This document shows positions 7,810 to 58,475 of a stretch of 64,000 bases of DNA, piece after piece. Under the pieces are notes generated by a model. That model made no database searches. It was given only the letters and a program-made list of their open reading frames with translations, and had not been told where the DNA came from. Each line of letters starts with the position of its first letter. Within the stretch, counting starts at the first letter, position 1. Source of the DNA: a virus; IMG/VR virus record IMGVR_UViG_3300027763_000032, positions 1-64,000 of that record. One strand, 5' to 3'. A program made the translations under genes and the position numbers.

Positions 7810-7838
7810 TTGACAAAGTGGCCGTTTGACTATATAAT
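7810..7838 (+). promoter_or_regulatory. Full-consensus sigma70 promoter
   Basis: TTGACA (7810-7815), 17-bp spacer, TATAAT (7833-7838): both hexamers match consensus exactly. Unlike several other promoters here it leaves a normal 5' leader of about 25 bases, with Shine-Dalgarno TAGGAG before the ATG at 7871. Confidence 0.85.
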
Positions 7839-7870: not shown

Positions 7871-9076
7871 ATGGCAACAAAGACAGCAACAAAAACTCGT
7901 GTAACCAAAAAGCAAGTTACAGCCCACCGTACTCGTGCAGTTAAAGATCACAGTCCTGTTTGGGAAGGTTGCGAGACTTGGGATGACAATACATTCCATC
8001 GCCATTTTAAACGCTCAATGGACTACTATCGCTTAGAAAGCGAAATTAAAACTTACAAGCCCACTGTTATCAAGTGGATGGAAACTGTAGGGTGTACCAA
8101 AGCAGACATTGCGGCTTTCAAGAAAGTCAAAGACAATCGTATTAGTACCACAATGGGTGCTGTTGCCGCCTGCTTGAATCGCGGCATGACTCCACAACGT
8201 GCTGGATTCAATAGTGGACGTGATACTGCCGCTTGGATGAGAGCGGAGATCGTTAAAGTTCTTGCTGAAGGCAAAAATGATATTGACCCGGAAACACTAG
8301 CCGCTGAAAAAGAAGCCAACAAGAAAGAAGTCTACACACCTAGCATACAAGAACGTCTGCGTGAAGTTGCTCTAGGCATGACTGAAGAACTTGAAAATGC
8401 CTATCAGGCCTTTAATGATGACCCAGAAAACTTTGATCCAAAAGCATTTAAGGTGTTGAATTTGCTCAAAGGTAAAGGCGCTAAGGCCGCACACGCTCGT
8501 ATTATCCGTGACTTCTATGCTCGTGATTTGGCAGAGCTTGAAGAACTTGCCAGCGGTAAAGCAGACGAACAGTTACGTGAAGGTTACAGTCATCGTAGCA
8601 AAAAACAAGTCAAGGCATTTATTGCGTTCTTAACTGAGATTCAAAATGCCTGCGAAATGTTGGCACAAGAAGCCAAAGTTAATCGTGCGCCACGTGCTAA
8701 GAAAGCTGTACCAGCAGAAAAGATTGTGGGCAAGCTCAAGTATATGAAGACTAACGAGCCTCTAAAACTTGTTAGTATTAACCCTGCAGATATTTTGGGT
8801 GCAAAAGAACTGTGGGTTTACAACACTAAGAACCGTAAAATTGGTCGTTATGTGGCTAAAGAGTACGGCGACCTTAGTGTAAAAGGTACTAGTATTATTA
8901 ACTTTGATGAAAATCTCAGCATACAAAAGACTGTTCGCAAGCCAGAAGATAAACTCAAAGAGTTTAAAGCCGCTGGTAAGGTTGCATTGCGTAAGTTCTT
9001 AGATGACATTAATGCTACAGATACCAAGTTAAACGGCCGTCTTAACGAAGAAACAGTACTGCTTAAGGTACAATAA
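7871..9076 (+). CDS. Unknown 401-aa basic-tailed protein under a strong promoter
   Basis: A 401-residue soluble protein. Residues 1-26 are Lys/Arg/Thr-rich without acidic residues (ATKTATKTRVTKKQVTAHR), suggesting a nucleic-acid-binding tail. The remainder is mainly helical with two Lys-rich linkers (near 268-278 and 360-375). No catalytic motif is seen and I do not recognise the family. The consensus promoter makes it one of the best-expressed early genes predicted here. It is followed directly by the late transcription unit of the first giant fibre. Confidence 0.7.
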   Translation: MATKTATKTRVTKKQVTAHRTRAVKDHSPVWEGCETWDDNTFHRHFKRSMDYYRLESEIKTYKPTVIKWMETVGCTKADIAAFKKVKDNRISTTMGAVAACLNRGMTPQRAGFNSGRDTAAWMRAEIVKVLAEGKNDIDPETLAAEKEANKKEVYTPSIQERLREVALGMTEELENAYQAFNDDPENFDPKAFKVLNLLKGKGAKAAHARIIRDFYARDLAELEELASGKADEQLREGYSHRSKKQVKAFIAFLTEIQNACEMLAQEAKVNRAPRAKKAVPAEKIVGKLKYMKTNEPLKLVSINPADILGAKELWVYNTKNRKIGRYVAKEYGDLSVKGTSIINFDENLSIQKTVRKPEDKLKEFKAAGKVALRKFLDDINATDTKLNGRLNEETVLLKVQ

Positions 9077-9111
9077 AGACTGTTTATGCGTTCGTAAAAC
9101 AAGTTTACAGG

Positions 9112-9146
9112 CATAGATAAATACTCTAAAGTGGAGTATTTCTATG
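9112..9146 (+). promoter_or_regulatory. Late promoter embedded in a start-codon-sequestering hairpin
   Basis: The late octamer GATAAATA is at 9116-9123. Left arm AAATACTC (9119-9126) pairs perfectly with GAGTATTT (9134-9141). CATAG (9112-9116) can add five pairs with CTATG (9142-9146), leaving a two-base bulge. The right side contains the Shine-Dalgarno GTGGAG (9131-9136) and the ATG (9144). RNA reading through from upstream would fold it shut. RNA started about six bases after the octamer lacks the left arm. Confidence 0.75.
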
Positions 9147-12100
9147 TCTGTGATTAGTGCTGACGCATTTAGAAGAATTGTTTTAGTTGATAACCTTGGT
9201 ACGACCCAACCCGTTTTACGAGCAGATGACCGTAATGACGTATTAACAATCCGTGCAGGCACTGGCATTTCAATTCAGAAAGATGAAGGAGATGTAAACG
9301 CCGGATTTACAATCTATAATACAGGTGAGCCGGGACCTACTAGTATTGACGATATACTAGAAATTCCAACAATTGGAGAACGTCCACAACCAGCGGGCGT
9401 AAGCTGGAAGCCAATGGAGCTTGGTAAGTTAACTGTTCAAGATTACTTGCCCGATAACCTAACAAAAACAACAAAGATGTTCTACACCGGACACGGTGTA
9501 CAGGCTCCTACTAACAGTAGTCTCTCCCTAACTGTTGCTGGTACAGGTACAGTTATTGTAGACGGCACTTCAGCATTGCGTTTGCCAGTTGGCGACATTG
9601 CTAGTCGTCCGGGAACTACAATCGGCACAGTACAAGCAGGTCAAATACGTTTCAATTCCGAGATACCAAGATTTGAAGGCTATGATGGTCGAGGTTGGAA
9701 CACTCTGGGTGGTGTAAGTAGTATTGATGGCGGTACAACTATTGCACCGGATCCTACATTACCCATACTAAACTTTAATGCTAACGGCTACCTAGTAGCC
9801 ACAATGAGTAGCTTAAACACAAAAATCTTTAGTCCGGGACTTGTAATCCCAACTGGAACTACTGCTGAACGTCCGCCTGCTATTGTTGGACAGATTCGTT
9901 TCAATACGCAAAACACTCAGTTTGAAGGATACAATGGTAGTGGTTGGTCAAGTCTAGGTGGGGTTCGAGACATTGATGGCAACACTTACATTGTTCCGGA
10001 ACTAGGCCCAGGTACAAATGAAAATACCCTATACTTTGTAACCAATGCTAATCTAGCTCTTACTCTAGACGGCAGTAGACTGTCTTTACAAAATGGTCGT
10101 TCTCTAATGTTTAGAGAAGGCATTGCCAGCGGCAATCAAACTGCAACTATTGCACCTCCAACAAATATTACATCAAGCTACACTCTTAAATTACCAACTA
10201 GTCTTGGATCAGCTGGTAGTGTATTAGGAGTTGATGGGTCAGGACAACTAGAATTTGTCAATGCTGATTCGAGTGCGGGTAGTAAGATTAACGTATCAGA
10301 ATTATTTGGTGATGACAACAATGATGGATTTAGTCGCCCTGTTAGAACATTAAAACGTGCTCTACAAATAGCATCAGGTTATGTTTATAGCCCAACATTT
10401 ATCTATGAAGAGGAAGTATGTCGACGTGACGCTGGACTTATTATTGACAGTTTGGGTTGGGACCTAGTAACAGATTCTAACTGGAGATCTTTAAAGAGCG
10501 GACTTACTTATTTTAATGCCACGGCATTGCCTGTTATAACAACTCAACGTCCCCAAACAATACAGGCTGTTTCTTTCTTAAAACGAAAAGTATTAGACCT
10601 AGTAACAAGTGAACCAACAGTTACTAGCACTCTTACAAGTTTATCAAATGAGATTATTGATATATTAACTAATGGTGTCGGCGCGGCCAATGCTGTATCA
10701 ATGCCTGCGCCTGCAGGTACACCTAGTGGTGTTGAAAACGCTAAGAACTTACTGTTAGCCAACACCAGTTTCTTAGTAGCAGAAACTATTGCATGGATCA
10801 ATTATCAAGCGGCAAATAATATTGCGCCATTTGACAAGAGCATTAGTTATGACGAGTCTAAATGTCGTAGAGATACCGGACTAATTTTAGATGCTGTTGG
10901 ATACGATCTAGCATTAGGTACAAACTATAATGCTGTAACTATCGGACTAGCATATCAAAGATATTCTTATACAACACTACCATCACAAAAAACAGTAACC
11001 CTTTCTGCTATACAATTTGCAAAAACTAATACTCTAGCACTTGCAGGAGTTAGTGCCGATGGAACTGCTACTACTAGGGCGGGTGCGGCATTTAATGAAA
11101 TTATTGACATTATAACCAATGGTGTAGTTCAAACTGCAACTGCCGCTGATGCATTAATATTCCCAACACCGACTGGAGCAAGCGCAAATAAAACTAATGC
11201 AAAAGATCAACTAATAGCCAATAAAGATTTCTTAAAAGCAGAAGTTATTGCATGGTTAAATTTAAACTACCCGTCTGTTGGTTTTGACCCTGCTTTATGC
11301 AGTCGAGATATGGGATACATTATTGATGCCCTATGCTATGATGTGTTGTATGGCGGCGATAGTGCAAGCATTCAAGTTGCTCAAACATATTTTACAGGCA
11401 GTGGCGCACAAGTATTACCATTGTTTCAAAGAGCCGCAACAGTTGCCGCATTTAATAGACTGTCAGAAATTGCTCAACAGGTTATTCTAAAAGACGAAGT
11501 AGTACCAACTGCTGGCAATACTGTCAGTCAAGATATTATTAACCCTGCAGGCACTACGACTGAATCAAATATTGTCTTTACACTAATTTCATATATTACT
11601 AGTTCTATTACTGGCAATACAACTGCGGGCCTACCTTCTCCAACATATCCATCAGTTACTTGGTCAGATGCCGGCCTACAAACTGCAAAGTCTGCTATTG
11701 CATCTGCTAGATCAACTATTATTAATGATACTATTATTAATATTAACGCTAGCAACCCGTTTACCTATGACAGTCCCAAGTGTGCTAGGGATACTGCCTT
11801 TATTGTCAACTCAGTCGCATACGATTTAATCTACGGTGGTAACAGTCAAAGTCGAGACGCTGGTTTAAAATATTATAGTAATGTAACTGGTCTAACTCTA
11901 ATTGGATCTCAAAATGCTCAAACAGCGGCGGCAATAGAAAGACTTAGAGCAGTTTCAATTCAAGTTGCACAAAATATTTCGATTGTTAAAACATCAGGTA
12001 ATGCACAAAATCAAGTATCGGGGTCTGCAGGCAGTAGCGGTGCGGCTGCAATTATTTCAGCAAGGCTATCAGAAATTATATCAGTTGTTAGTGCTGGAAC

Positions 12101-15100
12101 AAGTTATGCCCCAACATTGGTAGATCCAACAGTTGCAATAGATCCAGCATTAGGTCTCATACAAACAAAATTAGACAATGCTAAAGATCGTATTGCTGAT
12201 AACGTAGTTGCGTTTACTAGCAAATATAAACCAAATGGCAAGAAGATTGTTGTCCAAGTTGCGGCCGGTAACTATGTTGAAGACAATCCAGTTATCATTC
12301 CAGACAATACAAGCGTACTAGGCGCAAGTCTTCGTGCCTGTGACATTCGTCCGTTAAATGCTAACCAAGACATGTTCCGTTTACGTAACGGTGCATACTT
12401 TGGTGAGTTTACTTTCCGAGATGCAGTTGATGCGAGTGGCGTGCCAACATTCACTTTTGACTACGCTACTTCGTTTGATGATGCTACTGACATTTACACT
12501 AGTCGTCTTGGTTATACTAATATGCCTATTAGTAAACCTATTATTACTGTATCTCCATATATTCAAAACGTTTCCATCTTAAGTTTCTTAGGTGGTAACG
12601 GCGCAAAGGTTGACGGTAACCTAGTTGAAACTCCTAACATTCCGTTGATTAGAGAAACTGCTGAATTCCCATTAAGTGGTCCAGCACCTGAACAAGGTAA
12701 GTCATTTGTTGCTAACGCATTTACCACATTGAGCTTTGGCGGTACTGGCTGGCGTATTATTAACGATGCCTATGCTCAGATTGTGTCATGCTTCCAGATT
12801 TTCATGTTGAACGGTTCGTATGCTCAGTCAGGCGGATATCTATCTGTTACTAACTCTGCTACTAACTTTGGTATCTATGCGCTTCGTGCATCTGGTTACA
12901 GCCCAAATGCATTTGCCTTTGACAAAGGTTATATTGCATCAACTGGAACTAGCAACAGTAAACAGACTCTTACTACTCTAGGATTTGGTCGTGCGCCAAC
13001 ACAAGATTATGTTTTAAGATTTAGAAGCCCCGACTATAAGGTTGCCTATGACCTATTGTTAGCCAGCAAACTTGCAATACAGAACGCAACTATAACTTGG
13101 ATTAATTTAACATATCCAAGTTTAACATATAACAATGCAACTTGTTTTAGAGATGTTGGCCTGATCATTGATGCTGTAGCATATGATACATTCACAGGCG
13201 GTAATAGCAAGAGTGTAGAAGCCGCTACAAGTTACTATAAAGGCTCTACATCTAGTCAAATAGTTATAACTGGACAACTAACTGAAACCATTGCGGCAAT
13301 TAATTATGCTAGAAGTCTAGCGTTAACTGCTGTTTCTAATAGCGGACTAGGCACATATGTTGGCAGTAAGTTTGATATTATTACCAACGGCCTTGCAGAT
13401 CCGGCAGGAGTTCCTGTATCAGTTGGCTACGGTAATATTGGTGATATTACCAACAACTATAAACCAGCCGCAGTTAATGTATCATTTGATGCGGCAGTTA
13501 ATATAAATCCTGCTCTCGATACTATTACTGTTAATGCACACGGATTTACAAATGGTCAAGCAATTGTTTATCACGCAAATAACAATCCAGAAATTCCAGG
13601 ATTAAACAACGAACAAACTTACTATGTCAGTTATGTTGACCTTGATACCATTCGATTGACATTTGACGAAGGCGGAACTGTTCCTGTAGACATTAGAGCC
13701 ACAGGTGTTGGTACACATTTCTTCTTTAAAAATATTCAAGAGTTCTTTGTTGATGAAATACTTGAAAGTCATAACACCTATCAAGAACTAACTCTACAAG
13801 CTGGCTCATATAACTTTGTGCCAGGTAGTGAAATTACTGGCGTAACTGGCACTTCTAGTAACAATGCATTTGTGTATAGTTATGATCCAGTTAGCTATAA
13901 ACTAGTTGTTAGTCTAAACAAAGTTACTGTTGGTGCAAGTATTATTCGAAATGCCTTTGCGGCCAACAGTACTATTAATTCAGATAACGGTGCACCTGCT
14001 ACAACAAATATTGTAGTAAGTGATGTACTTGCTATCAATACATTATACTCTGCTAGATTTAGCGTACAGGGCACAACTGGAAACGGTCTACTAACTAACC
14101 TAGGTAATCTTCCAAATAAACAAATTTGGCTACATCGTCCAAGTATTGTTAACAGTTCTGGACACACTTGGGAATATGCTGGATCGGGGGTTGACTACAA
14201 TGCCCTACCACAAAACGGTGGACAAAGTATTTTCAAATATGAACAGTACAGTGATTTGCCAGGTCGAGTTTACTCTTCAGGTACTAACGAACTAGGTGAC
14301 TTTAAAGTTGGTGACTTCATTAAGGCTGAAAACAAAACTGGTAATGTTAGCTTTACCAACAAGGTATCAGTTGCACAGTTAGATGCACTACGTCTAGCGG
14401 TGGGTAATATTGTTATTGACTTTATCAGTGATGACGTTGACCTAGGTGATAATGAACCGGGTGGCGCAAGTAACAGTCGTCTAACAACACAGTTGGCTAT
14501 TCGTACATTCTTATCAAACAGACTAGGCGGATTCATTGACAAAGCTGTGAGTACTAACGCTGTTCCGGGTGCGGTTATTCAGCTGAACAGCTCTGGACAA
14601 ATTAATCCAGACTTGTTGCCTGCGGTACGTGCTTTCAACTCAGCTAAGAGCAAAGGCTTCTATAGTAGATTAAGTCTAGTTGAAGAAGTACCTGCTTACG
14701 ATTTCTTAAACGGTGACATTGTAACTGAAGAATATGCTACAGTACAGTTAACATTAAGTGCTCCTATCACTGCGCCTGTTGGCTCACTAGTTGTTCAAGC
14801 AACTACAGGTGCCAGTGGTTACCTAATTGGAGATGTGCTTGCTGAAACAGTTATCACAGTTGCCAGTGTAGGCGCATCTTTTAGTGCGGCATTTAATACA
14901 GTAGATAATTTAACAGTAGCTGGTGATGCTACACCTTCTACAGGCAACGGAGTCGTAAAGCCAAACTTGGTAGGTACCGTGGCTAGTAACGTGCCTGCAA
15001 ACTTTGTATTGTCAAATGCCAACGAAGGGCAATATTTAAATCTACGTGCAGATCAAAGTTACAGCTTTACCAACGGCACAATTGTTACCAGTGCTAATGA

Positions 15101-18100
15101 TAACGTACAAGGTAATGTTACATCTACAAGATTTGGAGTATTAGATACCGTAGACAACGGAAGCATTACTCCAGGAACATTGTATACTCCACTATCCGGA
15201 TCAGTTACATACTCTTATGTTACACTAACTAATATTTCAGGAACAGGTACTGGTGGTATTGCAGATATTACTGTAACCAATGGTGCTGTTAGCAGTGTTG
15301 ACTTACGTAGAGGCGGTACCGGTTATGCTGTAGGAGATGTTCTATCAGCGGCTAGCGGTACCATTGGCGGCACAGGTAGTGGCTTTAGAATCCCAGTAAC
15401 TGGTATCGAACAGCGTGTATACCTTAGCTTGCTAGGTGGCGAAAGATTTACTGCTACACTAGCAAGTCCAAACTTTATTGCTGATAATAATGCTCCAGTA
15501 AAAGCAATAACTGCTACCGGTACATCTACAAAAACATTTAGTGCTAATTCAATTGGTGGTAATGTAAACTATGTTACTAGTCGAATCACTATTACCGGCC
15601 ACACATATGCAGACGGCGATCCAGTAAAATATGTCAGCAGTCCAAACACTGCTATTGATCCGTTGGTCAATGCCGAAGTCTATTATGTAAATGTCTATGA
15701 TGCCAATACCATTGAACTGTACGAAGACTATGCATTGATACAAAAAGTTGTATTTACAAGTTCAAGTACTGGCAATCATACTCTAACAATCTTTAATGCC
15801 AACGTAATTGATAACTCATTCTATTATGCGGCACATGGATTAACTACAGGTGATCCATTAAGACTAACAGGATCAAGTTTACCATTAGTCGGCGGCTCTG
15901 CTATTGTTACTGGCACATTCTATTTTGCCGGTTCAATAACTGCAAACTCATTTACTATCCATGCATCAAGAAGCGAAGCATTGGCCAGTATTAACGGTCT
16001 TGTAACTAACAAGATTGTGTTCACTACTACTGGTAGCGGCACACTGACATTCACTAAACAAAACGTACAGGTATTTGGAACTGTAAACACTAGTTCTACA
16101 AACAAAGACAACTGGAGCTCATTGAGTGCTACCACTATTGATGCTTCAAGTATTACCGGTGGCGTTATCTCAACAAGTCGACTAGCTGGTACCGGTAGTG
16201 CTAATGATACTACATTCCTACGTGGTGATAGTTCATGGCGCACAGCAGTTCAAAGTATTAGAGAAGTCAGCACACCGTTGACATTTACTGGTTCTTATAA
16301 TACCGTCGGCGGTAACAATTATTACTATGGCGATGTACAATTAGACATTGAAAAAGTTGATAGCAACGGCGGTGACGACAACTACACTAATCTAGGTGTG
16401 TCTAAATTCCGTAAGACACAATTTGCTGTCGGAACTAGCGTTGCGGCAGGCGAAGTTTATATTAAAGACGGCGTAGTTGATGCAGGTACCTTAGACAGTT
16501 TAGACAGCGCATACTTCTTAAATCCTGCTAACCTAACTAGTAACGTGCCTGTTACACGTGGCGGAACTAATATTAGTTCGTATGCTGTGGGTGATTTATT
16601 GTATGCTAGTGCTACTAGTATTTTAAGTAAGGTAGCGATTGGGCCAGCTAATACCATATTAACCAGTGACGGCACTAAGCCTGCTTGGAGATCTAGTCTA
16701 ACAGTTGATGGTGCATTGACTATTGGCAGTCCGGCAGAACAAGCTCTTATTGTTACAACAGGCGGAGCTAACATTGGCGGCAACTTGTGGGTTGGTAAAA
16801 ATGGGTACATAACAGGCGATTTGAATGTTACTGGTAATGTAAACATTAAAGGTTCAATACTAACTATTAATTCAACTACAGTTAACGTTGACGATAAGAA
16901 TATTGAATTAGGCAGTGTATCTACACTATCAGATTTATCGGGTACTATTAGTGGAAACATAGTAGCAGGATTAATAGACACGTCCGGATTAACTAGCGGA
17001 ATGAGGTTGGTTAAAACTACTGGTACTGGTGCATTTGGCGGTACTACTGTCATTAATACTGTTGTTAACCCAACAACAATTACTGTAACTCCAACTACTG
17101 CAAACACAGATGGTACTATCACGTTTGATGTATTAACCGCAACTAATGCCACAGCAGACGGTGGCGGCATTACACTAAAAGGTACAACTGACAAAACATT
17201 CAATTGGGTCAACTCAACTAGCGCATGGACTTCGAGTGAGCACATGAATCTTGCCGCTGGTAAAGAATATCGAATTGGTGGAGTAACTGTACTAACAAGC
17301 ACAAGAGTATTAGGCAAGCTGCCTGGCGGAACTACTGCTGGCGATCTAGTTGACATTGATAGTACACAAACATTAACTAATAAAACTCTAACTAATCCTG
17401 TAATTAGTGGAACAACTACTAGCATCACTAACATCGGCACACTAGCAATAAGAGATGCCAGTGCGGCATATGATGTTACGCTTGCGGCCAACAGTTCAAC
17501 TGCCTTAACAGCAGGTCGTACATTGACTCTTGACATGGTCAATGCGGCAAGAACTATTAAGCTAGGTGGCAATTTAACTCTAGCCAATAACTTTACAACT
17601 GTTGGCAATGCTATAACATTAACAGTAAGTGGTGCAACTAACGTTACAGTACCAACTACAGGTACATTGGCTACCTTAGACGGTACAGAAACATTTACCA
17701 ATAAGACATTAACAAGCCCAGTGATTGGTACTATTGTTAATACAGGTACATTGACACTGCCAACAACTACAGATACTATTGTTGGTCGTGCTACTACTGA
17801 CACATTGTCCAACAAGACATTGACATTACCTAAGATTAATGACGCAAGTTCAGATCATACATATAATTTTGCGGTCAGCGAACTACCGGCTAATAGAACT
17901 ATAACATTGCCATTATTAACAGGTAATGATACATTTGCATTTACTGGACAAGCGCAGACATTTACTAATAAAACATTTACTGACGCTAGCACCTACTTCC
18001 AAGACGAAGCTGATAATCTTAAAAAATTACAGTTTCAACTAAGCGGAATTACTAGCGGAGTTACTCGTACATTAACTATTAATGATGTTAGCGGAACTAT

Positions 18101-19877
18101 TGTAACAACAGGCGACACTGGTTCTATTACCAGCACCATGATTGCCAATGACACTATTGTTAATGCTGATATTAACTCGGCTGCGGCCATTGCCTATAGT
18201 AAACTAAGTCTAGGCAATAGTATTGTCAATGCTGATGTAAGTAGCACAGCGGCAATTGCCTATAGCAAATTAAGTTTAGGTAATAGTATTGTCAATGCTG
18301 ATGTAAGTACTAGTGCGGCAATTGCCTATAGCAAATTAAATCTATCAGCAAGTATTGTCAATGCTGATATTAGCGCAACTGCCGCAATTGCAACAAGTAA
18401 AATTGCAGGCTTGGCAGCTTCAGCTACCACTGATACAACTAATGCTAGTAACATTACCAGTGGGTCGTTACCAAATGCACGCCTAACTAACAGTAGTATT
18501 ACTATTGGTACAACTCCAATTAGCTTAGGTAGTACAAGTACTACACTAGCAGGATTGACTAGTGTAACGGCAACAACATTTACTGGTTCGTTAAGTGGTA
18601 ATGCCAGTACAGTAACCAACGGTGTTGTTACTAGCGGCAGTTATAGTGATCCAAGTTGGTTGACCATCAGCAAGAGCAAAGTTGGGTTAGGCAACGTTGA
18701 CAACACCGCTGACGCTAATAAATCAGTTAACTATGCTACCAGCGCAGGTAGTGCGGGTAATGCAACCACAGCCGGCGGTCTAGCAGTAGCTACTGGCCGC
18801 AATAATAGTGCTAATCAAATTGTTCGTACAGATGGTAGTGGCTATTTACAAACAGGTTACATCAACTCTAGCAACGGTGACGAGGGCAACAACAGTAGTC
18901 CAAGTAGAGTCTGGGGTACAAATGGTAGTGATAGTTATCTACGTACATACTTAACTAGTGCGCTAAGTGTTAGCTATGCGGCATCTGCTGGTGCAGTAGC
19001 ATGGAGTGGCATAAGTGGCAAGCCGACCACAGTTAGTGGTTTTGGAATCACTGATGCAATTACTACAAGCAATATTGGTTCGCAATCAGTTAACTATGCT
19101 ACTAGTGCAGGTAGTGTAAGCGGTACGGTAGCTAACGCAACCAACGCTACCAACGCAACGTATGCAACCTATATTAATACAGATTCATATAATATGAAAC
19201 TGCATTGGAATGGACAAAGCGGGCAACCAACTTGGCTATGGGGTTCAAATAACGGAACAGATGCATATGTTTGGAACCCAAGTAACTTTAGTGTTAACTA
19301 TGCTACTACCGCAGGTAGTGCTCCGGCTAGTGACGTTTATAATTGGGCTAAACAACCTAATCCGCCTGCAAGTACATCTACCTTAGTAGGTGCTAGCGGA
19401 TATACTGCCGTATCAGGAACTGTTACCCTAGCAGGTGGCGGCGACACTAGTGTTACACAAAGTGGAAATACTATTACTATTAGCTCATTATCAACTGCGG
19501 TATACGCGGCTGACTTAGCTGAGAAATATCAGGCCGATGCAGACTACGAACCGGGTACTGTATTAATGTTTGGCGGTGAGTTTGAAGTTACAGTAGCAGA
19601 CGATGACACTATTCGCGTAGCTGGTATTGTATCCACAAACCCAGCTTACTTGATGAACAAGGGCCTAGATGGTGTTAATACTGTAGCGATTGCCCTACAA
19701 GGTCGTGTACCATGTAAGGTTAAGGGCAAGATCCGCAAGGGCGATATGCTAGTTGCCGCTGAAGGAGGGTATGCCCGTGCTACTGATAACCCACGATTGG
19801 GTGCTATTATTGGTAAAGCTCTAGAAAACTTTGACGGTGAAGAGGGTGTTATCGAAGTAGTTGTAGGAAGAATTTAA
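9144..19877 (+). CDS. Giant tail-fibre/adhesin-like virion protein (3577 aa)
   Basis: A single uninterrupted 3577-residue frame. Visible modules in order: two QIRFN...FEGYxGxGW modules (about 166-191 and 250-274); four tandem modules with a C-x-RD-x-G-x-I-[IL]-D-[AS] core (Cys near 425, 573, 718, 879); a pectin-lyase-like beta-helix region (about 1030-1270, KKIVVQVAAGNYVEDNP); a fifth CxRD module (near 1333); long Thr/Gly/Asn beta-rich shaft; TLTNKTLTNP-type repeats (from about 2740); four 22-residue repeats (3005-3092); and a C-terminal AADLAEKYQADADYEPG domain (about 3455-3577), shared with the second giant, that may be a trimerisation or self-cleaving chaperone domain. It most likely forms a fibre for host recognition. 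It is expressed from a late promoter. Confidence 0.8.
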   Translation: MSVISADAFRRIVLVDNLGTTQPVLRADDRNDVLTIRAGTGISIQKDEGDVNAGFTIYNTGEPGPTSIDDILEIPTIGERPQPAGVSWKPMELGKLTVQDYLPDNLTKTTKMFYTGHGVQAPTNSSLSLTVAGTGTVIVDGTSALRLPVGDIASRPGTTIGTVQAGQIRFNSEIPRFEGYDGRGWNTLGGVSSIDGGTTIAPDPTLPILNFNANGYLVATMSSLNTKIFSPGLVIPTGTTAERPPAIVGQIRFNTQNTQFEGYNGSGWSSLGGVRDIDGNTYIVPELGPGTNENTLYFVTNANLALTLDGSRLSLQNGRSLMFREGIASGNQTATIAPPTNITSSYTLKLPTSLGSAGSVLGVDGSGQLEFVNADSSAGSKINVSELFGDDNNDGFSRPVRTLKRALQIASGYVYSPTFIYEEEVCRRDAGLIIDSLGWDLVTDSNWRSLKSGLTYFNATALPVITTQRPQTIQAVSFLKRKVLDLVTSEPTVTSTLTSLSNEIIDILTNGVGAANAVSMPAPAGTPSGVENAKNLLLANTSFLVAETIAWINYQAANNIAPFDKSISYDESKCRRDTGLILDAVGYDLALGTNYNAVTIGLAYQRYSYTTLPSQKTVTLSAIQFAKTNTLALAGVSADGTATTRAGAAFNEIIDIITNGVVQTATAADALIFPTPTGASANKTNAKDQLIANKDFLKAEVIAWLNLNYPSVGFDPALCSRDMGYIIDALCYDVLYGGDSASIQVAQTYFTGSGAQVLPLFQRAATVAAFNRLSEIAQQVILKDEVVPTAGNTVSQDIINPAGTTTESNIVFTLISYITSSITGNTTAGLPSPTYPSVTWSDAGLQTAKSAIASARSTIINDTIININASNPFTYDSPKCARDTAFIVNSVAYDLIYGGNSQSRDAGLKYYSNVTGLTLIGSQNAQTAAAIERLRAVSIQVAQNISIVKTSGNAQNQVSGSAGSSGAAAIISARLSEIISVVSAGTSYAPTLVDPTVAIDPALGLIQTKLDNAKDRIADNVVAFTSKYKPNGKKIVVQVAAGNYVEDNPVIIPDNTSVLGASLRACDIRPLNANQDMFRLRNGAYFGEFTFRDAVDASGVPTFTFDYATSFDDATDIYTSRLGYTNMPISKPIITVSPYIQNVSILSFLGGNGAKVDGNLVETPNIPLIRETAEFPLSGPAPEQGKSFVANAFTTLSFGGTGWRIINDAYAQIVSCFQIFMLNGSYAQSGGYLSVTNSATNFGIYALRASGYSPNAFAFDKGYIASTGTSNSKQTLTTLGFGRAPTQDYVLRFRSPDYKVAYDLLLASKLAIQNATITWINLTYPSLTYNNATCFRDVGLIIDAVAYDTFTGGNSKSVEAATSYYKGSTSSQIVITGQLTETIAAINYARSLALTAVSNSGLGTYVGSKFDIITNGLADPAGVPVSVGYGNIGDITNNYKPAAVNVSFDAAVNINPALDTITVNAHGFTNGQAIVYHANNNPEIPGLNNEQTYYVSYVDLDTIRLTFDEGGTVPVDIRATGVGTHFFFKNIQEFFVDEILESHNTYQELTLQAGSYNFVPGSEITGVTGTSSNNAFVYSYDPVSYKLVVSLNKVTVGASIIRNAFAANSTINSDNGAPATTNIVVSDVLAINTLYSARFSVQGTTGNGLLTNLGNLPNKQIWLHRPSIVNSSGHTWEYAGSGVDYNALPQNGGQSIFKYEQYSDLPGRVYSSGTNELGDFKVGDFIKAENKTGNVSFTNKVSVAQLDALRLAVGNIVIDFISDDVDLGDNEPGGASNSRLTTQLAIRTFLSNRLGGFIDKAVSTNAVPGAVIQLNSSGQINPDLLPAVRAFNSAKSKGFYSRLSLVEEVPAYDFLNGDIVTEEYATVQLTLSAPITAPVGSLVVQATTGASGYLIGDVLAETVITVASVGASFSAAFNTVDNLTVAGDATPSTGNGVVKPNLVGTVASNVPANFVLSNANEGQYLNLRADQSYSFTNGTIVTSANDNVQGNVTSTRFGVLDTVDNGSITPGTLYTPLSGSVTYSYVTLTNISGTGTGGIADITVTNGAVSSVDLRRGGTGYAVGDVLSAASGTIGGTGSGFRIPVTGIEQRVYLSLLGGERFTATLASPNFIADNNAPVKAITATGTSTKTFSANSIGGNVNYVTSRITITGHTYADGDPVKYVSSPNTAIDPLVNAEVYYVNVYDANTIELYEDYALIQKVVFTSSSTGNHTLTIFNANVIDNSFYYAAHGLTTGDPLRLTGSSLPLVGGSAIVTGTFYFAGSITANSFTIHASRSEALASINGLVTNKIVFTTTGSGTLTFTKQNVQVFGTVNTSSTNKDNWSSLSATTIDASSITGGVISTSRLAGTGSANDTTFLRGDSSWRTAVQSIREVSTPLTFTGSYNTVGGNNYYYGDVQLDIEKVDSNGGDDNYTNLGVSKFRKTQFAVGTSVAAGEVYIKDGVVDAGTLDSLDSAYFLNPANLTSNVPVTRGGTNISSYAVGDLLYASATSILSKVAIGPANTILTSDGTKPAWRSSLTVDGALTIGSPAEQALIVTTGGANIGGNLWVGKNGYITGDLNVTGNVNIKGSILTINSTTVNVDDKNIELGSVSTLSDLSGTISGNIVAGLIDTSGLTSGMRLVKTTGTGAFGGTTVINTVVNPTTITVTPTTANTDGTITFDVLTATNATADGGGITLKGTTDKTFNWVNSTSAWTSSEHMNLAAGKEYRIGGVTVLTSTRVLGKLPGGTTAGDLVDIDSTQTLTNKTLTNPVISGTTTSITNIGTLAIRDASAAYDVTLAANSSTALTAGRTLTLDMVNAARTIKLGGNLTLANNFTTVGNAITLTVSGATNVTVPTTGTLATLDGTETFTNKTLTSPVIGTIVNTGTLTLPTTTDTIVGRATTDTLSNKTLTLPKINDASSDHTYNFAVSELPANRTITLPLLTGNDTFAFTGQAQTFTNKTFTDASTYFQDEADNLKKLQFQLSGITSGVTRTLTINDVSGTIVTTGDTGSITSTMIANDTIVNADINSAAAIAYSKLSLGNSIVNADVSSTAAIAYSKLSLGNSIVNADVSTSAAIAYSKLNLSASIVNADISATAAIATSKIAGLAASATTDTTNASNITSGSLPNARLTNSSITIGTTPISLGSTSTTLAGLTSVTATTFTGSLSGNASTVTNGVVTSGSYSDPSWLTISKSKVGLGNVDNTADANKSVNYATSAGSAGNATTAGGLAVATGRNNSANQIVRTDGSGYLQTGYINSSNGDEGNNSSPSRVWGTNGSDSYLRTYLTSALSVSYAASAGAVAWSGISGKPTTVSGFGITDAITTSNIGSQSVNYATSAGSVSGTVANATNATNATYATYINTDSYNMKLHWNGQSGQPTWLWGSNNGTDAYVWNPSNFSVNYATTAGSAPASDVYNWAKQPNPPASTSTLVGASGYTAVSGTVTLAGGGDTSVTQSGNTITISSLSTAVYAADLAEKYQADADYEPGTVLMFGGEFEVTVADDDTIRVAGIVSTNPAYLMNKGLDGVNTVAIALQGRVPCKVKGKIRKGDMLVAAEGGYARATDNPRLGAIIGKALENFDGEEGVIEVVVGRI
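18156..18419 (+). repeat. Four tandem 66-bp repeats coding 22-aa units in the first giant
   Basis: Four in-frame copies, starting at 18156, 18222, 18288 and 18354, encode IVNADxxxxAAIAYSKLxLxxS units, the last being more diverged. DNA copies differ mostly at third positions. This looks like a coding repeat that can lengthen or shorten the fibre shaft. Confidence 0.85.
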
Positions 19878-19879
19878 AC

Positions 19880-19887
19880 GATAAATA
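19880..19887 (+). promoter_or_regulatory. T4-type late promoter
   Basis: The octamer GATAAATA lies three bases after the stop of the 3577-aa gene and 18 bases before the ATG at 19906. No hairpin covers the downstream start, in contrast to the copy at 9116. Confidence 0.7.
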
Positions 19888-19905: not shown

Positions 19906-21429
19906 ATGAGCCAATTGCTTTCCATTGTTGATGATAAAATTGTTATTGAAAAACTAAGTCTAAAATATCTAGACGGCAACACTACGCACGTCGGAACATT
20001 AGATATCAAAGGTGGCTTAAAAGTTGTTCAGAGCGTATCATTCGACACTGATCTTAGAGTACGAGGTACTTTAGACGTCGACACTATTAATGTTAAAAAT
20101 CTTAATAGAGGTGATGCAAGTCAACTAGATGCGTTTACCTTTTCAGCAGAAGCAGAGTCAGGATTAGACGGCCGAGGCGTAGTTTGGGGCATTGGCGATA
20201 CTTCATATCAATTGATATTTAAAGCACAGCCCCGTAGAATTTATTCAAGTGAATCTTTTGACATTGGTAAAAATTCCAAATATCAAATTGACGGTGTTGA
20301 CGTATTGCTACAAGATAGATTAGGCAATTCAATTAAACACTCAAAATTAACTGAAGTTGGTACACTCACCGGACTAGAAGTAGACGGCAATACTAACCTA
20401 GGCAATACAATAATTGTAAACAGCTACTTGAATCGTGTTGGCATTAATACTGAAATCCCAAATGCGGCATTTAGCGTTATGGAAAACGGTATTGAGATCG
20501 TTGTTGGTACAGAAGACAACCGTGCTGTTATTGGAACTTGGGGGAATCAAGCATTAGATATTATTACAGATAACACTTCTAGAATTAACATCCAAGGTAA
20601 TACAGTAACATTTGGCAGCGAGGCCAGTAAAAACGCACAGGTTAAAATTAACGGTACACTAACAGTAGATAGTATTGTCAGCGATGTTCGAGTTGAAAGA
20701 ACTGCACCTATTGAGTTTTTAGAAGATAATAATAGTGGAGTATACGGTAAAGGATTAATTTGGAGATCTAAAGGCAACAGTTCTAGACAGTTCTTTTTAA
20801 TGCCAAACCCAGATAGATTCTATAGCACCGAGTCTATTGACCTAGCTAGTGGAAATTATTTTAGCATTGCTAAGAATCTAGTTATTAGTGAAACAGCATT
20901 AGGTGCCGGTGTTAAAAATAGTAATTTAGAAACACTAGGCACATTATCAAATCTAACAGTTGGCGGTGATGTTAATCTAAATGACGCATTAAAAGTTGTT
21001 AACTCAGAAGCCGTTGCCAACAGATTATTTACTGTAGCGTCTGGAGATGTTAGTCTTAGATTAACTGCTGACAGCATCAATGCTAGCGACAGCATTAGAG
21101 TGTTTGTAAAAGAAACACAAGAACTAGCTATTACTGATAACGGTATTACTATTGGTAATAAAAACAATACTGCTAGAACTATTAACGCATATGGTAAACT
21201 AGCAGTAAACATTACTCATCCAGATCCAGACGCGGCATTTAGTGTCGACGGACCGGTGGTAATGAATGGCAAAAAGTTTGTAACCACAGACGCTATGCCA
21301 ACTACCGGCGAATGGAACGTTGGAGATATTGCTTGGAACTCTACACCACAGACATCTAGCTATATTGGTTGGGTATGTGTTACTAGCGGAAACCCGGGCA
21401 TTTGGAAACCGTTTGGGCAGATTGCCTAA
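19906..21429 (+). CDS. Virion structural protein, fibre-like with internal duplication (507 aa)
   Basis: 507 residues with two related halves. Each carries a block of the form DxNNSGxxGxGxxWxxxGxSxRQxxxxxxPxRxYSxESxDI (about residues 80-125 and 265-310), then a GTLxxLxVxGxxNL block. The C-terminus (TGEWNVGDIAWNS...GWVCVTSGNPGIWKPFG) resembles the tip or closing module of phage fibres. There is no signal peptide and no membrane segment. Its own late octamer and its location between the two giants suggest a fibre hinge or adaptor. The Shine-Dalgarno AAGAGA is moderate. Confidence 0.75.
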   Translation: MSQLLSIVDDKIVIEKLSLKYLDGNTTHVGTLDIKGGLKVVQSVSFDTDLRVRGTLDVDTINVKNLNRGDASQLDAFTFSAEAESGLDGRGVVWGIGDTSYQLIFKAQPRRIYSSESFDIGKNSKYQIDGVDVLLQDRLGNSIKHSKLTEVGTLTGLEVDGNTNLGNTIIVNSYLNRVGINTEIPNAAFSVMENGIEIVVGTEDNRAVIGTWGNQALDIITDNTSRINIQGNTVTFGSEASKNAQVKINGTLTVDSIVSDVRVERTAPIEFLEDNNSGVYGKGLIWRSKGNSSRQFFLMPNPDRFYSTESIDLASGNYFSIAKNLVISETALGAGVKNSNLETLGTLSNLTVGGDVNLNDALKVVNSEAVANRLFTVASGDVSLRLTADSINASDSIRVFVKETQELAITDNGITIGNKNNTARTINAYGKLAVNITHPDPDAAFSVDGPVVMNGKKFVTTDAMPTTGEWNVGDIAWNSTPQTSSYIGWVCVTSGNPGIWKPFGQIA

Positions 21430-22087: not shown

Positions 22088-22135
22088 TTGACTTAAATAG
22101 ACATACATGCTATAATGCTGTATGTCTATTTTTTT
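22088..22135 (+). promoter_or_regulatory. Combined terminator hairpin and sigma70 promoter
   Basis: TTGACT (22088-22093), 17-bp spacer, TATAAT (22111-22116). A perfect 13-bp inverted repeat AAATAGACATACA (22095-22107) / TGTATGTCTATTT (22119-22131) holds the -10 in its 11-base loop and runs into a T-tract (22129-22135). RNA arriving from the queD-like gene would meet a terminator-like hairpin, while DNA at the same place starts transcription of the UV endonuclease gene. Confidence 0.7.
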
Positions 22136-40458: not shown

Positions 40459-40491
40459 AATAAATACAGCATATAGGATAATAATATGCTG
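40459..40491 (+). promoter_or_regulatory. Late promoter followed by start-codon hairpin
   Basis: AATAAATA at 40459-40466, followed at once by CAGCATAT (40467-40474), which pairs perfectly with ATATGCTG (40484-40491). The right arm contains the ATG (40486-40488) and the nine-base loop contains the Shine-Dalgarno AGGATAA. Initiation about six bases after the octamer would remove most of the left arm. Confidence 0.7.
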
Positions 40492-43400
40492 AATATATGG
40501 AGCGTAAAGTCTGGGCACTCACTTGGATCCCTACAAGAAGGTAGGGTATTTAAGGATATCCACGGGACGGACAATCGCATACCTCTACCGCTGATTAACG
40601 GCGCCGACTTATCTAATGTGACTTTTAGTTTGATCTCGGGTAAATTACCCCAAGGTCTTAGATTAATAGATCATTATATTTCAGGATCACCCTACGAAGT
40701 TGTTAGGTCAACTGTGTCAACATTTGTTATCCGAGCGCAAAACTTAGTTACTAAAGAAATATCAGATCGTACCTTGTCAATTACAGTTGAAGGTGCAGAT
40801 GCTCCAAGATGGGTTACTACAGAAGGCACATTGCCTGTTGGGGCATTGCCTTATAGAATAGCACGTATTATTAGTGCATCAAGATACAATAACATTGTTA
40901 CCCTTACAACTGATAAGGCGCATGATTTTGTTTTTGATAACATAATCTCAGTAACTAGTTCTTTGAATGATATCAACAATGATAAAATAAAAGTTTTACG
41001 TCCAGGATTTTCTGGAGTTGAAACTCCCGATGAATACATTTATAGAATATCACATACTATAACCTATAGAGACGTAGGTATTAATTTTGGCACTAGATCT
41101 GTAACAGGTACTGTGCAGTTATTAAAAGCGCCTCTGACATTTGTATTAGACGGATCCTACATTGATTTTCAATTACTAGCGACTGATACTGATCTACGAG
41201 CAGGGGATGAGTTAGAGTTTTTTATTGAAGACAAAAGCGGACAACTTCCACCTGGCCTAACATTAAGTAGAAGCGGACGCATTACTGGATTTATTGATCC
41301 TATTCTTGCACTAGACATCACAGCTCGAGACGGAACATTCGACGTTAACACCTTTGATGATTATCCGTATGATTTTGCTCCGTTGCCTAACATTGGTATT
41401 GCAGGATACGAACAAGTACTTACTCCTAAAAAATTAAATAGATTCTATGAATTTATTGTTAGTGTAAGTGACGGCGAAACTATTACCAAACGTACATTTA
41501 AAATATATGTAGTTGGAGATGACTTCTTACGCACAGATAATACCATAATGAAAATTGGTGGCGGTGCTTATATTTCCTATACTTCCGACAGCACCTATCT
41601 ACGTAGCCCAATTTGGTTAAGCGCGGCTAACCTAGGAACTAAACGTGCTAATAATTATGTTACTGTTATACTAGATACATTTGATCCTAATCCAGCAATT
41701 GGGCCAGTTGATTATCGTTTAGAAAAATTTAACCCCGATGGTACTCCAAGCGAGTTGCCGGCAGGTCTAGCACTTGATCCTAGCAACAGCGAAATTTTTG
41801 GTTTTGTTCCTTACCAACCAGCTGTTACAATAAATTATAAATTTACAGTTAGTGCAACAAAGTACGATAAAGAAAATCTTGAACAAATTGAAGTTGAAAT
41901 TGTCAATGCAGAATTAGCGCCAATTGGTCAAAATTATTTAAAAATTAACAAATTACCAACAAGTGATCAACAATTGATCACTAATGACAACATACGAATT
42001 GGTGCTTATACTTACAAGATTAACTCTTACGAAGTGCTGTCTAATCAAGCATATGACACTATTAAATTAGATAAGCCCCTAAAGAATGTAGTTATTAAAA
42101 GTTTTGTTATTGCCAATTCTTATTACAGAGTACTAAGTCAGCTGTATACAACACGTACAAGTTCAAAAACTTTTACCATGCAGGTGCTTGGAGAGATTGA
42201 CAGCGTTATTAGATTCTTAACTCCTGCTAACTTGGGGTCAGTTAGAGCAAACTTATCAAGTCAACTAGAAATACAAGCAGAAACTACAGTAGTTGGTGCG
42301 GTGCTTACTTATAGACAAGTTGGGGGTACATTGCCTCCAGGTGTTGAACTACGTGCCAACGGTGAACTAATTGGCAGGGTTACGCAGTTTGGAAATATTG
42401 TTTATAGGAGTTTTTGGAAGAGTGGAAAACAATATAAAATTAATGATGTTGTAAAATATCAAGATCAATTATATAAGGCCAACTTTGCACATACAAGTAG
42501 TAGTCCTTTTAATATATCTTATTGGGACAAGTATACCTTTAGAAATAATATTACAGGTCTTACAACATATGATAGTAGAACTACTACGTTTGACGGTCGT
42601 ATGGGAACCCAAGACCGATCATATTCATTTACTGTATTAGCACAAGATCAATTTAAGTACAGTGCAATATCCGGAACCTTTACAGTATTTGTAGAAGATC
42701 CCGATGTAAAATTGTTCAGTAATGTTTATGTCAAGCCGTTTCCAACATTGGCAAAAAGAGCAAAATTTTATACGTTTATCAACGACCTAGATATTTTTAC
42801 TGAAAGCAAAATATATCGATCAAGCGATCCAAATTATGGTGTGCAGAAAGAATTGAAAATGTTAATATATGCAGGTATTGAAACACTAGAAATTAAAAAC
42901 TATGTGCCTGCGCTAATTATGAACACCAAACGTAAACGCTTCCGCATTGGCAGTCCAAAGAAGGCCATTGCAAGGAACCAGGGTTCAAACGATACAATAT
43001 ATGAAGTAATATATCTTGAAATTTTTGACGAGTACGAAATTGGAAAACTTAGTCCTGCTCAGGCAATAAAGTTATCATACGGCTCCCGTTCTAAAGTTCA
43101 AGTTAATCAAACTGACATAAATCCAGTTAACGGACGTCTAGATCTTTCTAATAGCAAAATACGCGATAAGTTAAACGACGATACTGTAGATCGATTTCAG
43201 AAAACAGGAGATAGTCTAGGAGCAGACAATACTGTGGTCAAGGCCAGCGGTACAGACGTTGAATATATCTATCCGTCAAGCGTTAGTAACATTAGACGAA
43301 ATATAAAAACATTAGTTGTGGGTAACGGCAGTCCTAGACAAATTGACACAGAAAATAGCTTTTTGCCTCCCTGGATGGTAACTCCGCAAGATTCGAGAAC

Positions 43401-46570: not shown

Positions 46571-46607
46571 AAAGGGTCTTGACAGACCCTTTTTTAATTG
46601 CTATACT
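46571..46607 (+). promoter_or_regulatory. Combined terminator and promoter: TTGACA forms the hairpin loop
   Basis: AAAGGGTC (46571-46578) and GACCCTTT (46585-46592) form an 8-bp stem followed by a T-run to 46595, a good Rho-independent terminator. Its six-base loop is exactly TTGACA (46579-46584), the -35 of a promoter with 17-bp spacer and TATACT (46602-46607). The -10 is also one arm of TATACT-AAC-AGTATA. Confidence 0.8.
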
Positions 46608-54265: not shown

Positions 54266-54312
54266 TTGACATAAGTAAAAAGGTATAGTATAATGACTAC
54301 TATGCCTTTTTT
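54266..54312 (+). promoter_or_regulatory. Combined terminator hairpin and sigma70 promoter
   Basis: TTGACA (54266-54271), 17-bp spacer, TATAAT (54289-54294). A 14-bp inverted repeat (54277-54290 with 54298-54311, one G-U) ends in a T-run, so read-through RNA forms an intrinsic-terminator-like hairpin. The -10 straddles the left arm and the seven-base loop. The downstream gene is the dnaJ-like one. Confidence 0.75.
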
Positions 54313-54329
54313 CACCAATAAAATAAAAT

Positions 54330-55160
54330 ATGGACTATTATAATGTATTAGGCGTTCCTAGAGGTGCTAGCCCCGAGGACATTAAAAAAGCCTATAGAAA
54401 ACTAGCCGCCGTACATCATCCAGATAGAGGTGGTGATACACAACAGTTTCAACAACTGCAAGAAGCATACGCAACACTCAGTGACGATCAAAAACGTGCA
54501 GAGTACGACAACCCACAACCACAATTTGGCGGGCCTGGTGGATTCCACTTTAATACCGGAAATATGAATGATATTTTTGGAGGTATGTTTGGGGGACCGT
54601 TTGGAGGATTCCAGCAACAGAGAATGATGCGTAAAAATAAATCTATTAACATTACTGTGCAAATGACTCTTAAAGATATTTTACATGGTAAGGATGTTAT
54701 TGGCAGTATTCGATTGCCTTCCGGTAGAGAACAAGCACTTCAACTTAAAATCCCTCGCGGTGTTGCAATGGGAGATAGTATTAGATTCCACGAAATGGGA
54801 GATGATACTCATCCGCAATTACAGCGTGGAGACCTAATTGCTGTTATTCAAGAAATACCGCATCCACAATTTGAACGCAGGGGAGCAGACCTTTACACTA
54901 CTGCTCCAATATCTGTATTTGATACAATGCTAGGAACATCAATTAAGATTCAAACTATAGAAGATTCAACATTAGATATTACTATACCAGTAGGTATCAA
55001 TCCAGGTACTACTATGTCATGCCATCAATATGGATTGCCTATTGGTATGCACGAACATCGACGTGGTAATTTATATGTTAAAATTGATGTTGTTGTCCCA
55101 AAATCAATAGACTATGAAGATACCGAAACATTGAGGCAATTAAAAGCCAAGTACGGTTGA
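54330..55160 (+). CDS. DnaJ-like co-chaperone (CbpA/type II, no zinc finger)
   Basis: 276 residues. It has a J domain with HPD at 30-32 (residues 1-65), a Gly/Phe-rich linker (about 70-98, GGPGGFHF, GGMFGGPFGGF), then two C-terminal substrate-binding barrels (about 105-262) with RGDLIAVIQEIPHPQFERRGADLY. The four CxxCxGxG repeats of type I DnaJ are absent, so it resembles CbpA/DjlA-type II proteins. It would recruit host DnaK to phage or host clients. It has its own promoter and is followed by the ClpA-like gene, an apparent proteostasis pair. Confidence 0.9.
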   Translation: MDYYNVLGVPRGASPEDIKKAYRKLAAVHHPDRGGDTQQFQQLQEAYATLSDDQKRAEYDNPQPQFGGPGGFHFNTGNMNDIFGGMFGGPFGGFQQQRMMRKNKSINITVQMTLKDILHGKDVIGSIRLPSGREQALQLKIPRGVAMGDSIRFHEMGDDTHPQLQRGDLIAVIQEIPHPQFERRGADLYTTAPISVFDTMLGTSIKIQTIEDSTLDITIPVGINPGTTMSCHQYGLPIGMHEHRRGNLYVKIDVVVPKSIDYEDTETLRQLKAKYG

Positions 55161-58099: not shown

Positions 58100-58128
58100 C
58101 ATAAATACTCTATAATAAGGTATTTGTG
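58100..58128 (+). promoter_or_regulatory. Late promoter forming the left arm of a hairpin
   Basis: CATAAATA (58100-58107). CATAAATAC (58100-58108) pairs with GTATTTGTG (58120-58128) with one U-G wobble, with an 11-base loop. The Shine-Dalgarno-like AAGG (58117-58120) is at the loop/right-arm junction, and the ATG (58131) follows two bases after the arm. Initiation about six bases after the octamer would delete the left arm. Confidence 0.6.
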
Positions 58129-58130
58129 CT

Positions 58131-58475
58131 ATGAGAATGGATGAAGTTACAAACTCAGCGATCAATCTTGAAGAAGTAGACCTACACGACGATCTACACT
58201 TCTTCATGCATAACGATCCTAATTTTTACCGCAAGGTGTTTTTTCCTATGATCAGTAAGGTCAAAGCACACATCAAAGCAGGTAATCGTTGTCACGACGG
58301 AGTTTTTCGTCCCTGTGTAGATAGAGCCGCAGAAGCTTACTGTAAAAAGTTTAATATTCCCGATAATGAAAAGTCAGTGTTTACTGATGTTGACCGCGAC
58401 GAACTAGCCCGTAAGATTTTTGGGCAAGAGAAAGATCGCATTGAACAGGGTGACTATGATGGAGATGACAAATGA
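58131..58475 (+). CDS. Conserved-type late phage protein, unknown (114 aa)
   Basis: 114 residues from ATG 58131 (58137 is a second option). The block DLHDDLHFFMHNDPNFYRKVFFPM resembles a small protein found in the head region of T4-like marine phages, and CHDGVFRPCVDRAAEAYCKKF follows with three cysteines. The Asp/Lys-rich C-terminus overlaps the next gene (ATGA). It is the first gene of a long late operon. Function unknown. Confidence 0.68.
   Translation: MRMDEVTNSAINLEEVDLHDDLHFFMHNDPNFYRKVFFPMISKVKAHIKAGNRCHDGVFRPCVDRAAEAYCKKFNIPDNEKSVFTDVDRDELARKIFGQEKDRIEQGDYDGDDK

Follow-up and report, generated by a model that had tools for sequence, protein, structure and literature searches.

Why would a late promoter be placed inside a hairpin that closes the start of the very gene it serves? 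The question is raised by an IMG/VR phage contig of 121 kb, itself a fragment. Its first 64,000 nucleotides, here called the window, encode T4-type genes (DNA polymerase, clamp loader, ligase and tail fibres). All coordinates of the junction discussed here refer to the + strand. An ORF of 3577 aa (9144..19877, ATG at 9144), a tail fibre or virion structural gene according to its match with phrog_5342 tail fiber (5e-200), lies behind a codirectional 401-aa ORF (7871..9076; phrog_11903, function unknown) whose stop codon is found 67 nt before the fibre ATG. The gap contains the T4-type late promoter octamer GATAAATA (9116..9123). This octamer occurs five times in the window against 4.3 expected, without excess over chance, and all five copies are on the + strand and immediately 5' of ORF starts. 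The portion of the literature on T4-like cyanophages considered here gives late promoters with the same octamer form (NATAAATA) and, unlike the present case, describes no hairpin over their ribosome binding sites (RBS) (PMC2984593).

The hairpin counts 22 base pairs. Its left arm (9105..9128) contains the octamer, and its right arm (9132..9153) covers the Shine-Dalgarno (SD) sequence GTGGAG (9131..9136, paired from 9132 on), the spacer, the ATG and the codons that follow. Positions 9105-9117 pair with 9141-9153 and 9120-9128 with 9132-9140, leaving 9118-9119 as a bulge and 9129-9131 as the loop. The initial annotation had located the octamer in the left arm and considered the SD and the ATG to be buried by pairing, and both sequence and fold agree with it; the hairpin it described is real, though it was drawn too short, since the stem reaches 22 pairs. 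The folding calculation of RNA 9100-9160 that it proposed gave -25.4 kcal/mol, far beyond dinucleotide shuffles (-9.3 +/- 2.4; z -6.8, 0/200), and when octamer, SD and ATG were kept fixed the native energy was reached by 0/5000 shuffles (z -6.5). Following the T4 rule (+6), late transcription is predicted to start at 9129, the first base of the loop, with the octamer one helical turn before it as in T4, and RNA begun there would lack the whole left arm, as had been anticipated. Opening of 9131-9146 is calculated to cost about 22 kcal/mol in read-through RNA vs about 3 kcal/mol in RNA from 9129, and the outcome is the same for assumed late starts from +4 to +9. An Rfam covariance-model search with the hairpin gave no match up to E = 1, and the region shows no DNA similarity to phage isolates.

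A stage switch of this type has been described in T4 for e, soc, 49, I-TevI, I-TevII, I-TevIII and segB (PMC3014915, PMC2988022), which bears out the precedent of e and soc invoked by the initial annotation. In order to place the fibre hairpin on the same scale we used ddG, the energy gained by allowing pairing between the RNA before the late start and the RNA after it. With T4 as positive control, the published cases rank among the strongest values of that genome (e -14.9, I-TevII -13.9, 49 -13.3, 26 -12.8, I-TevI -12.4, segB -12.3), soc reaching just -5.2 with the same flanks. In the window, the fibre hairpin attains -22.3, and is stronger by this measure than those of e, 49, I-TevI, I-TevII and segB (-12 to -15); it is followed by octamers at 58100 (-15.9) and 40459 (-7.0), the other late promoters ranging from 0 to -4. 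The octamer at 58100..58107 (+; CATAAATA) lies within an RBS-covering hairpin that precedes a 114-aa ORF (58131-58475), and a perfect sigma70 promoter is found upstream at 55157. At 40459-40498, the octamer AATAAATA shows a modest hairpin before a 1038-aa ORF, which 29/2000 shuffles equal.

RNA entering the fibre gene from upstream would have a candidate source. A perfect sigma70 promoter, TTGACA-17-TATAAT (7810..7838), lies 1.3 kb upstream of the hairpin and is presumably the early promoter of the 401-aa gene and the source of read-through. It is conserved at the equivalent place in nearly all relatives, with 10-12/12 matches (mostly 12/12) and diverged spacers, and no terminator was found between it and 9116. 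The conserved perfect promoter and the uninterrupted path suggest that the fibre gene is exposed to upstream early or middle transcription. In the scheme we propose, host sigma70 RNA polymerase would start at 7810-7838, transcribe the 401-aa gene, meet no terminator and enter the fibre gene. In the long run-in RNA, 9105-9128 would pair with 9132-9153, hiding SD and ATG, and no early fibre protein would be made. Later, a gp55-type polymerase would recognise GATAAATA and start near 9129, giving an RNA devoid of the left arm in which the ribosome site is free and fibre protein can be produced. With the late promoter inside the hairpin that hides the start, translation would be expected of late RNA and not of RNA running in. 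Here we infer the early timing of the sigma70 promoter, the start at 9129 and the block of translation. The gp55 late sigma family (phrog_234) was detected in the near-identical relative G001 and also in G004 and G005, with no match to its profile in the 121-kb fragment itself; the gp33 and gp45 profiles (phrog_254, phrog_223) gave no match in the six records (fragment and five relatives), nor in any control genome. As far as can be read from the DNA, the features of the T4 e/soc switch are present at this locus, and the interpretation first given to the hairpin appears well supported but unproven. Very probably the element acts as a stage switch and insulates the gene against read-through, by the T4-type mechanism.

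The relatives of this junction indicate how far the arrangement extends. The 401-aa gene is encoded at 80 loci with 32 distinct downstream contexts, 19 of them with a late octamer and an ORF. These 19 distinct relatives carry an arm-matched hairpin without exception; it covers the RBS in most and often differs in sequence among them. Own arms give a mean ddG of -16.7, swapped arms one of -9.3. Among 64 distinct late promoters of the relatives' contigs, 21 (33%) reach a ddG of -10 vs 5% when swapped (z -12.4); the p-values given in this work ignore the relatedness of the sequences. Two layouts occur, one with the octamer in the left arm, as in the window, and a second, seen in L051, L066 and L027, whose loop holds the octamer and whose right arm holds the SD. 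In cultured phages carrying the 401-aa gene family (Cr30, BUCT-ZZ01, ACP17, phiN3, DLP6, OC, PA5oct) the gene has other neighbours, and no clear equivalent was found at the junction. After the 401-aa gene of L049 and L050 hairpin, octamer and ATG are intact, the frame behind has just five codons and the next gene comes about 80 nt on.

Covariation in the 33 aligned leaders is moderate, since the promoter and the start codon leave few positions free to vary. Compensatory changes fall mainly on two pairs: 16-47, never broken, is GC in 23, AU in 8 and GU in 2 leaders, and five pair types occur at 12-51. G.U pairs are tolerated at 14-49, 23-39 and 17-46. None of 500 shuffles attained the covariation score or the count of cells with changes on both sides, but the number of pairs with double changes did not exceed the shuffles. 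Some rows were contributed by a scan of the collection for GATAAATACTC..GAGTATTT, which served only for this addition and is biased to a perfect inner stem; the inner stem of the alignment is thus partly selected, the pattern fixing part of it.

A natural experiment is provided by the gene behind the hairpin, which in most relatives encodes a virion structural protein of about 490 aa and in the window is the 3577-aa fibre gene. The hairpin is not explained by how large the fibre protein is, because the same hairpin guards the ~490-aa gene in relatives. A homologue of the latter (507 aa, 19906..21429, +; 39% identity, 4e-107) stands behind the fibre gene in the window. Its own promoter (octamer at 19880..19887, +) keeps the octamer and the downstream AAGAGA core (TTCTAAAGAGA) and has no hairpin (ddG -2.8); the closest relative, G001, is alike. 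The ~490-aa family was surveyed at 80 loci, and the following counts use distinct ones. Directly behind the 401-aa gene a hairpin is present in 20/20 loci (median -15.7), and elsewhere there is essentially none in 9/9. Six of these nine loci are without a 401-aa gene (median ddG -0.9), and in three it is further off, with ddG at most -8.1 and the RBS largely unpaired. An opposite-strand gene precedes 7/9 and the late fibre gene 2/9; in L223, L225 and L287 an opposite-strand gene intervenes between the 401-aa gene and the late promoter. On the tree of the ~490-aa protein there are six context changes, at least four of them forced, and the sister pair L250 (-22.0) and L287 (-8.1) displays such a switch. 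The exceptions are exceptions in degree: L277 (-8.1) and L293 (-7.2), both behind the 401-aa gene, meet the strongest value found elsewhere (-8.1), and in L261, also behind it, the hairpin has another layout, upstream of the SD and not over it. The hairpin depends on a codirectional, sigma70-driven neighbour. As the same family with the same octamer and core occurs elsewhere without hairpin, the promoter alone does not produce it, and these sequence contexts indicate, in our view, that what the hairpin tracks is exposure to codirectional run-in, and neither the gene nor the promoter.

Terminators offer a second view of the same dependence. In five distinct relatives an intrinsic terminator is located between the 401-aa gene and the late promoter, and their hairpins are weaker (-9.1 to -14.0, n=5) vs those without one (-14.7 to -22.3, n=14), with no overlap (p = 8.6e-5, uncorrected for relatedness). 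The terminator state changes four times on the tree, at least three changes being forced. A positional insulation rule for a large uncultured T4-like group seems somewhat more plausible than its absence: a late gene behind a same-strand, sigma70-driven gene would carry a hairpin around its own late promoter, weaker when a terminator intervenes and decaying behind an opposite-strand or late gene. The hairpin would belong to the junction and not to the gene, being kept or rebuilt when the gene is replaced.

Could the stem instead be an intrinsic terminator or an RNase processing site of the upstream transcript, covering the start codon by accident? A long, near-perfect stem that begins 29 nt past the upstream stop codon invites this reading, as do the true terminators present in the same gap of some relatives. 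However, those terminators stand beside the hairpin and not in its place, the relatives hold start codon and SD in the right arm despite sequence change, and neither a U-run after the stem nor a terminator call at the stem was found. The intrinsic terminator was rejected for the missing U-run, and the reading as a whole is very unlikely. A slightly smaller chance is left to a palindrome that acts as DNA, either as a repressor or activator site overlapping the late promoter or as an extruded cruciform. The octamer does lie within an inverted repeat, and I-TevI binds its own late promoter, so that overlap of operator and late promoter is known (PMC2988022). Nevertheless, the tolerated G.U pairs fit RNA better than DNA, and no fixed protein site is kept, because stem sequences are unrelated among relatives and the octamer-in-loop layout exists. 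What the relatives share is that the SD/ATG region pairs with bases 5' of the predicted start, and both the G.U pairs and the variable stem sequences speak against a palindrome acting at the DNA level. Least probable of all is that the arms only seem matched because of the promoter and SD consensus sequences (AAATACTC with GAGTATTT) together with common descent. In favour of this, AAATAC and GAGAGTAT recur in many of these promoters, and close relatives are numerous. Against it, arm swaps among promoters sharing octamer and SD lose about half of the energy, the same gene family, octamer and AAGAGA core are found elsewhere without hairpin, at least four context changes are independent, and the hairpin proved not to be equally frequent in homologues without codirectional sigma70 transcription.

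The stage switch and insulator reading brings the junction close to the T4 e leader (with soc, 49 and 26), which has the octamer in or beside the left arm and SD/AUG in the right arm and whose late RNA begins past the left arm (PMC3014915), the latter being predicted only in our case. In T4 e, early read-through RNA is poorly translated (PMC3014915). The present hairpin differs in guarding tail-fibre or virion structural genes of an uncultured lineage, in a stem of 22 pairs that goes past the start codon (ddG -22 vs -12 to -15) and in persisting at the junction when another gene comes to stand behind it. The leaders of T-even homing endonucleases, intron-encoded and free-standing (I-TevI, I-TevII, I-TevIII, segB and mobE of Aeh1), also combine a late promoter with an RBS-sequestering hairpin, on genes within early or middle transcripts (PMC2988022). 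Unlike these, the genes downstream of our hairpins are not mobile endonucleases, and the link with mobile genes does not apply.

The mechanism itself is thus known from T4, and what is new with respect to the openly licensed literature is the lineage, the genes and their setting, the clade-wide recurrence and the natural experiment. Until now, few genes were known to have the T4 switch (lysozyme, soc, endonucleases), mostly in T-even phages; in this uncultured group it is a recurring design and serves structural genes, and the repeated rearrangements point to codirectional run-in from an early-type promoter as the selecting factor. Why only some late genes have such a hairpin becomes a rule that is testable on any T4-like genome, and, with sequence alone at hand, it could aid in working out when transcripts are made.

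Late-promoter hairpins were also observed at other genes. In related phages, a gene of about 241 aa with an HExxH motif (putative metalloprotease) has its late octamer in an RBS-covering hairpin (TAGTACAC..GTGTACTATG) with ddG up to -19 (L008:795, L013:6729, L037:2226, L029:161, L074:4360). A protein of about 110 aa with hydrophobic stretches, possibly a membrane protein, shows values of -11.6 to -15.4 (L030:11802, L034:11282, L055:11192). A small protein family of other viral contigs (MAKIVEDVIVIKFSKIVKDSE.., 55 aa in L085) carries the same GATAAATACTC..GGAGTATTT hairpin at its start (L085:11392 and many loci from the collection scan).

A transcription-level analogue may exist as well. A terminator-like hairpin encloses a sigma70 promoter at 22088-22131 of the window, at L035:15632 and at L081:9212; run-in RNA would end there, and the left arm would be missing from RNA begun within it. 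All three precede the same gene (M(I)KRIGFAC..), with differing stem sequences. Genome-wide, sigma70 promoters were not significantly more frequent within terminators than in swaps (5/88 vs 1.9 swapped, maximum 5). Two further cases were noted in the window: a perfect sigma70 promoter at 54266-54310 whose -10 region is within a terminator-like stem (AAGGTATAGTA / TACTATGCCTTTTTT), and an intrinsic terminator at 46571-46607 in which loop and right arm double as the -35 region of a sigma70 promoter (AAAGGGTCTTGACAGACCCTTTTTT).
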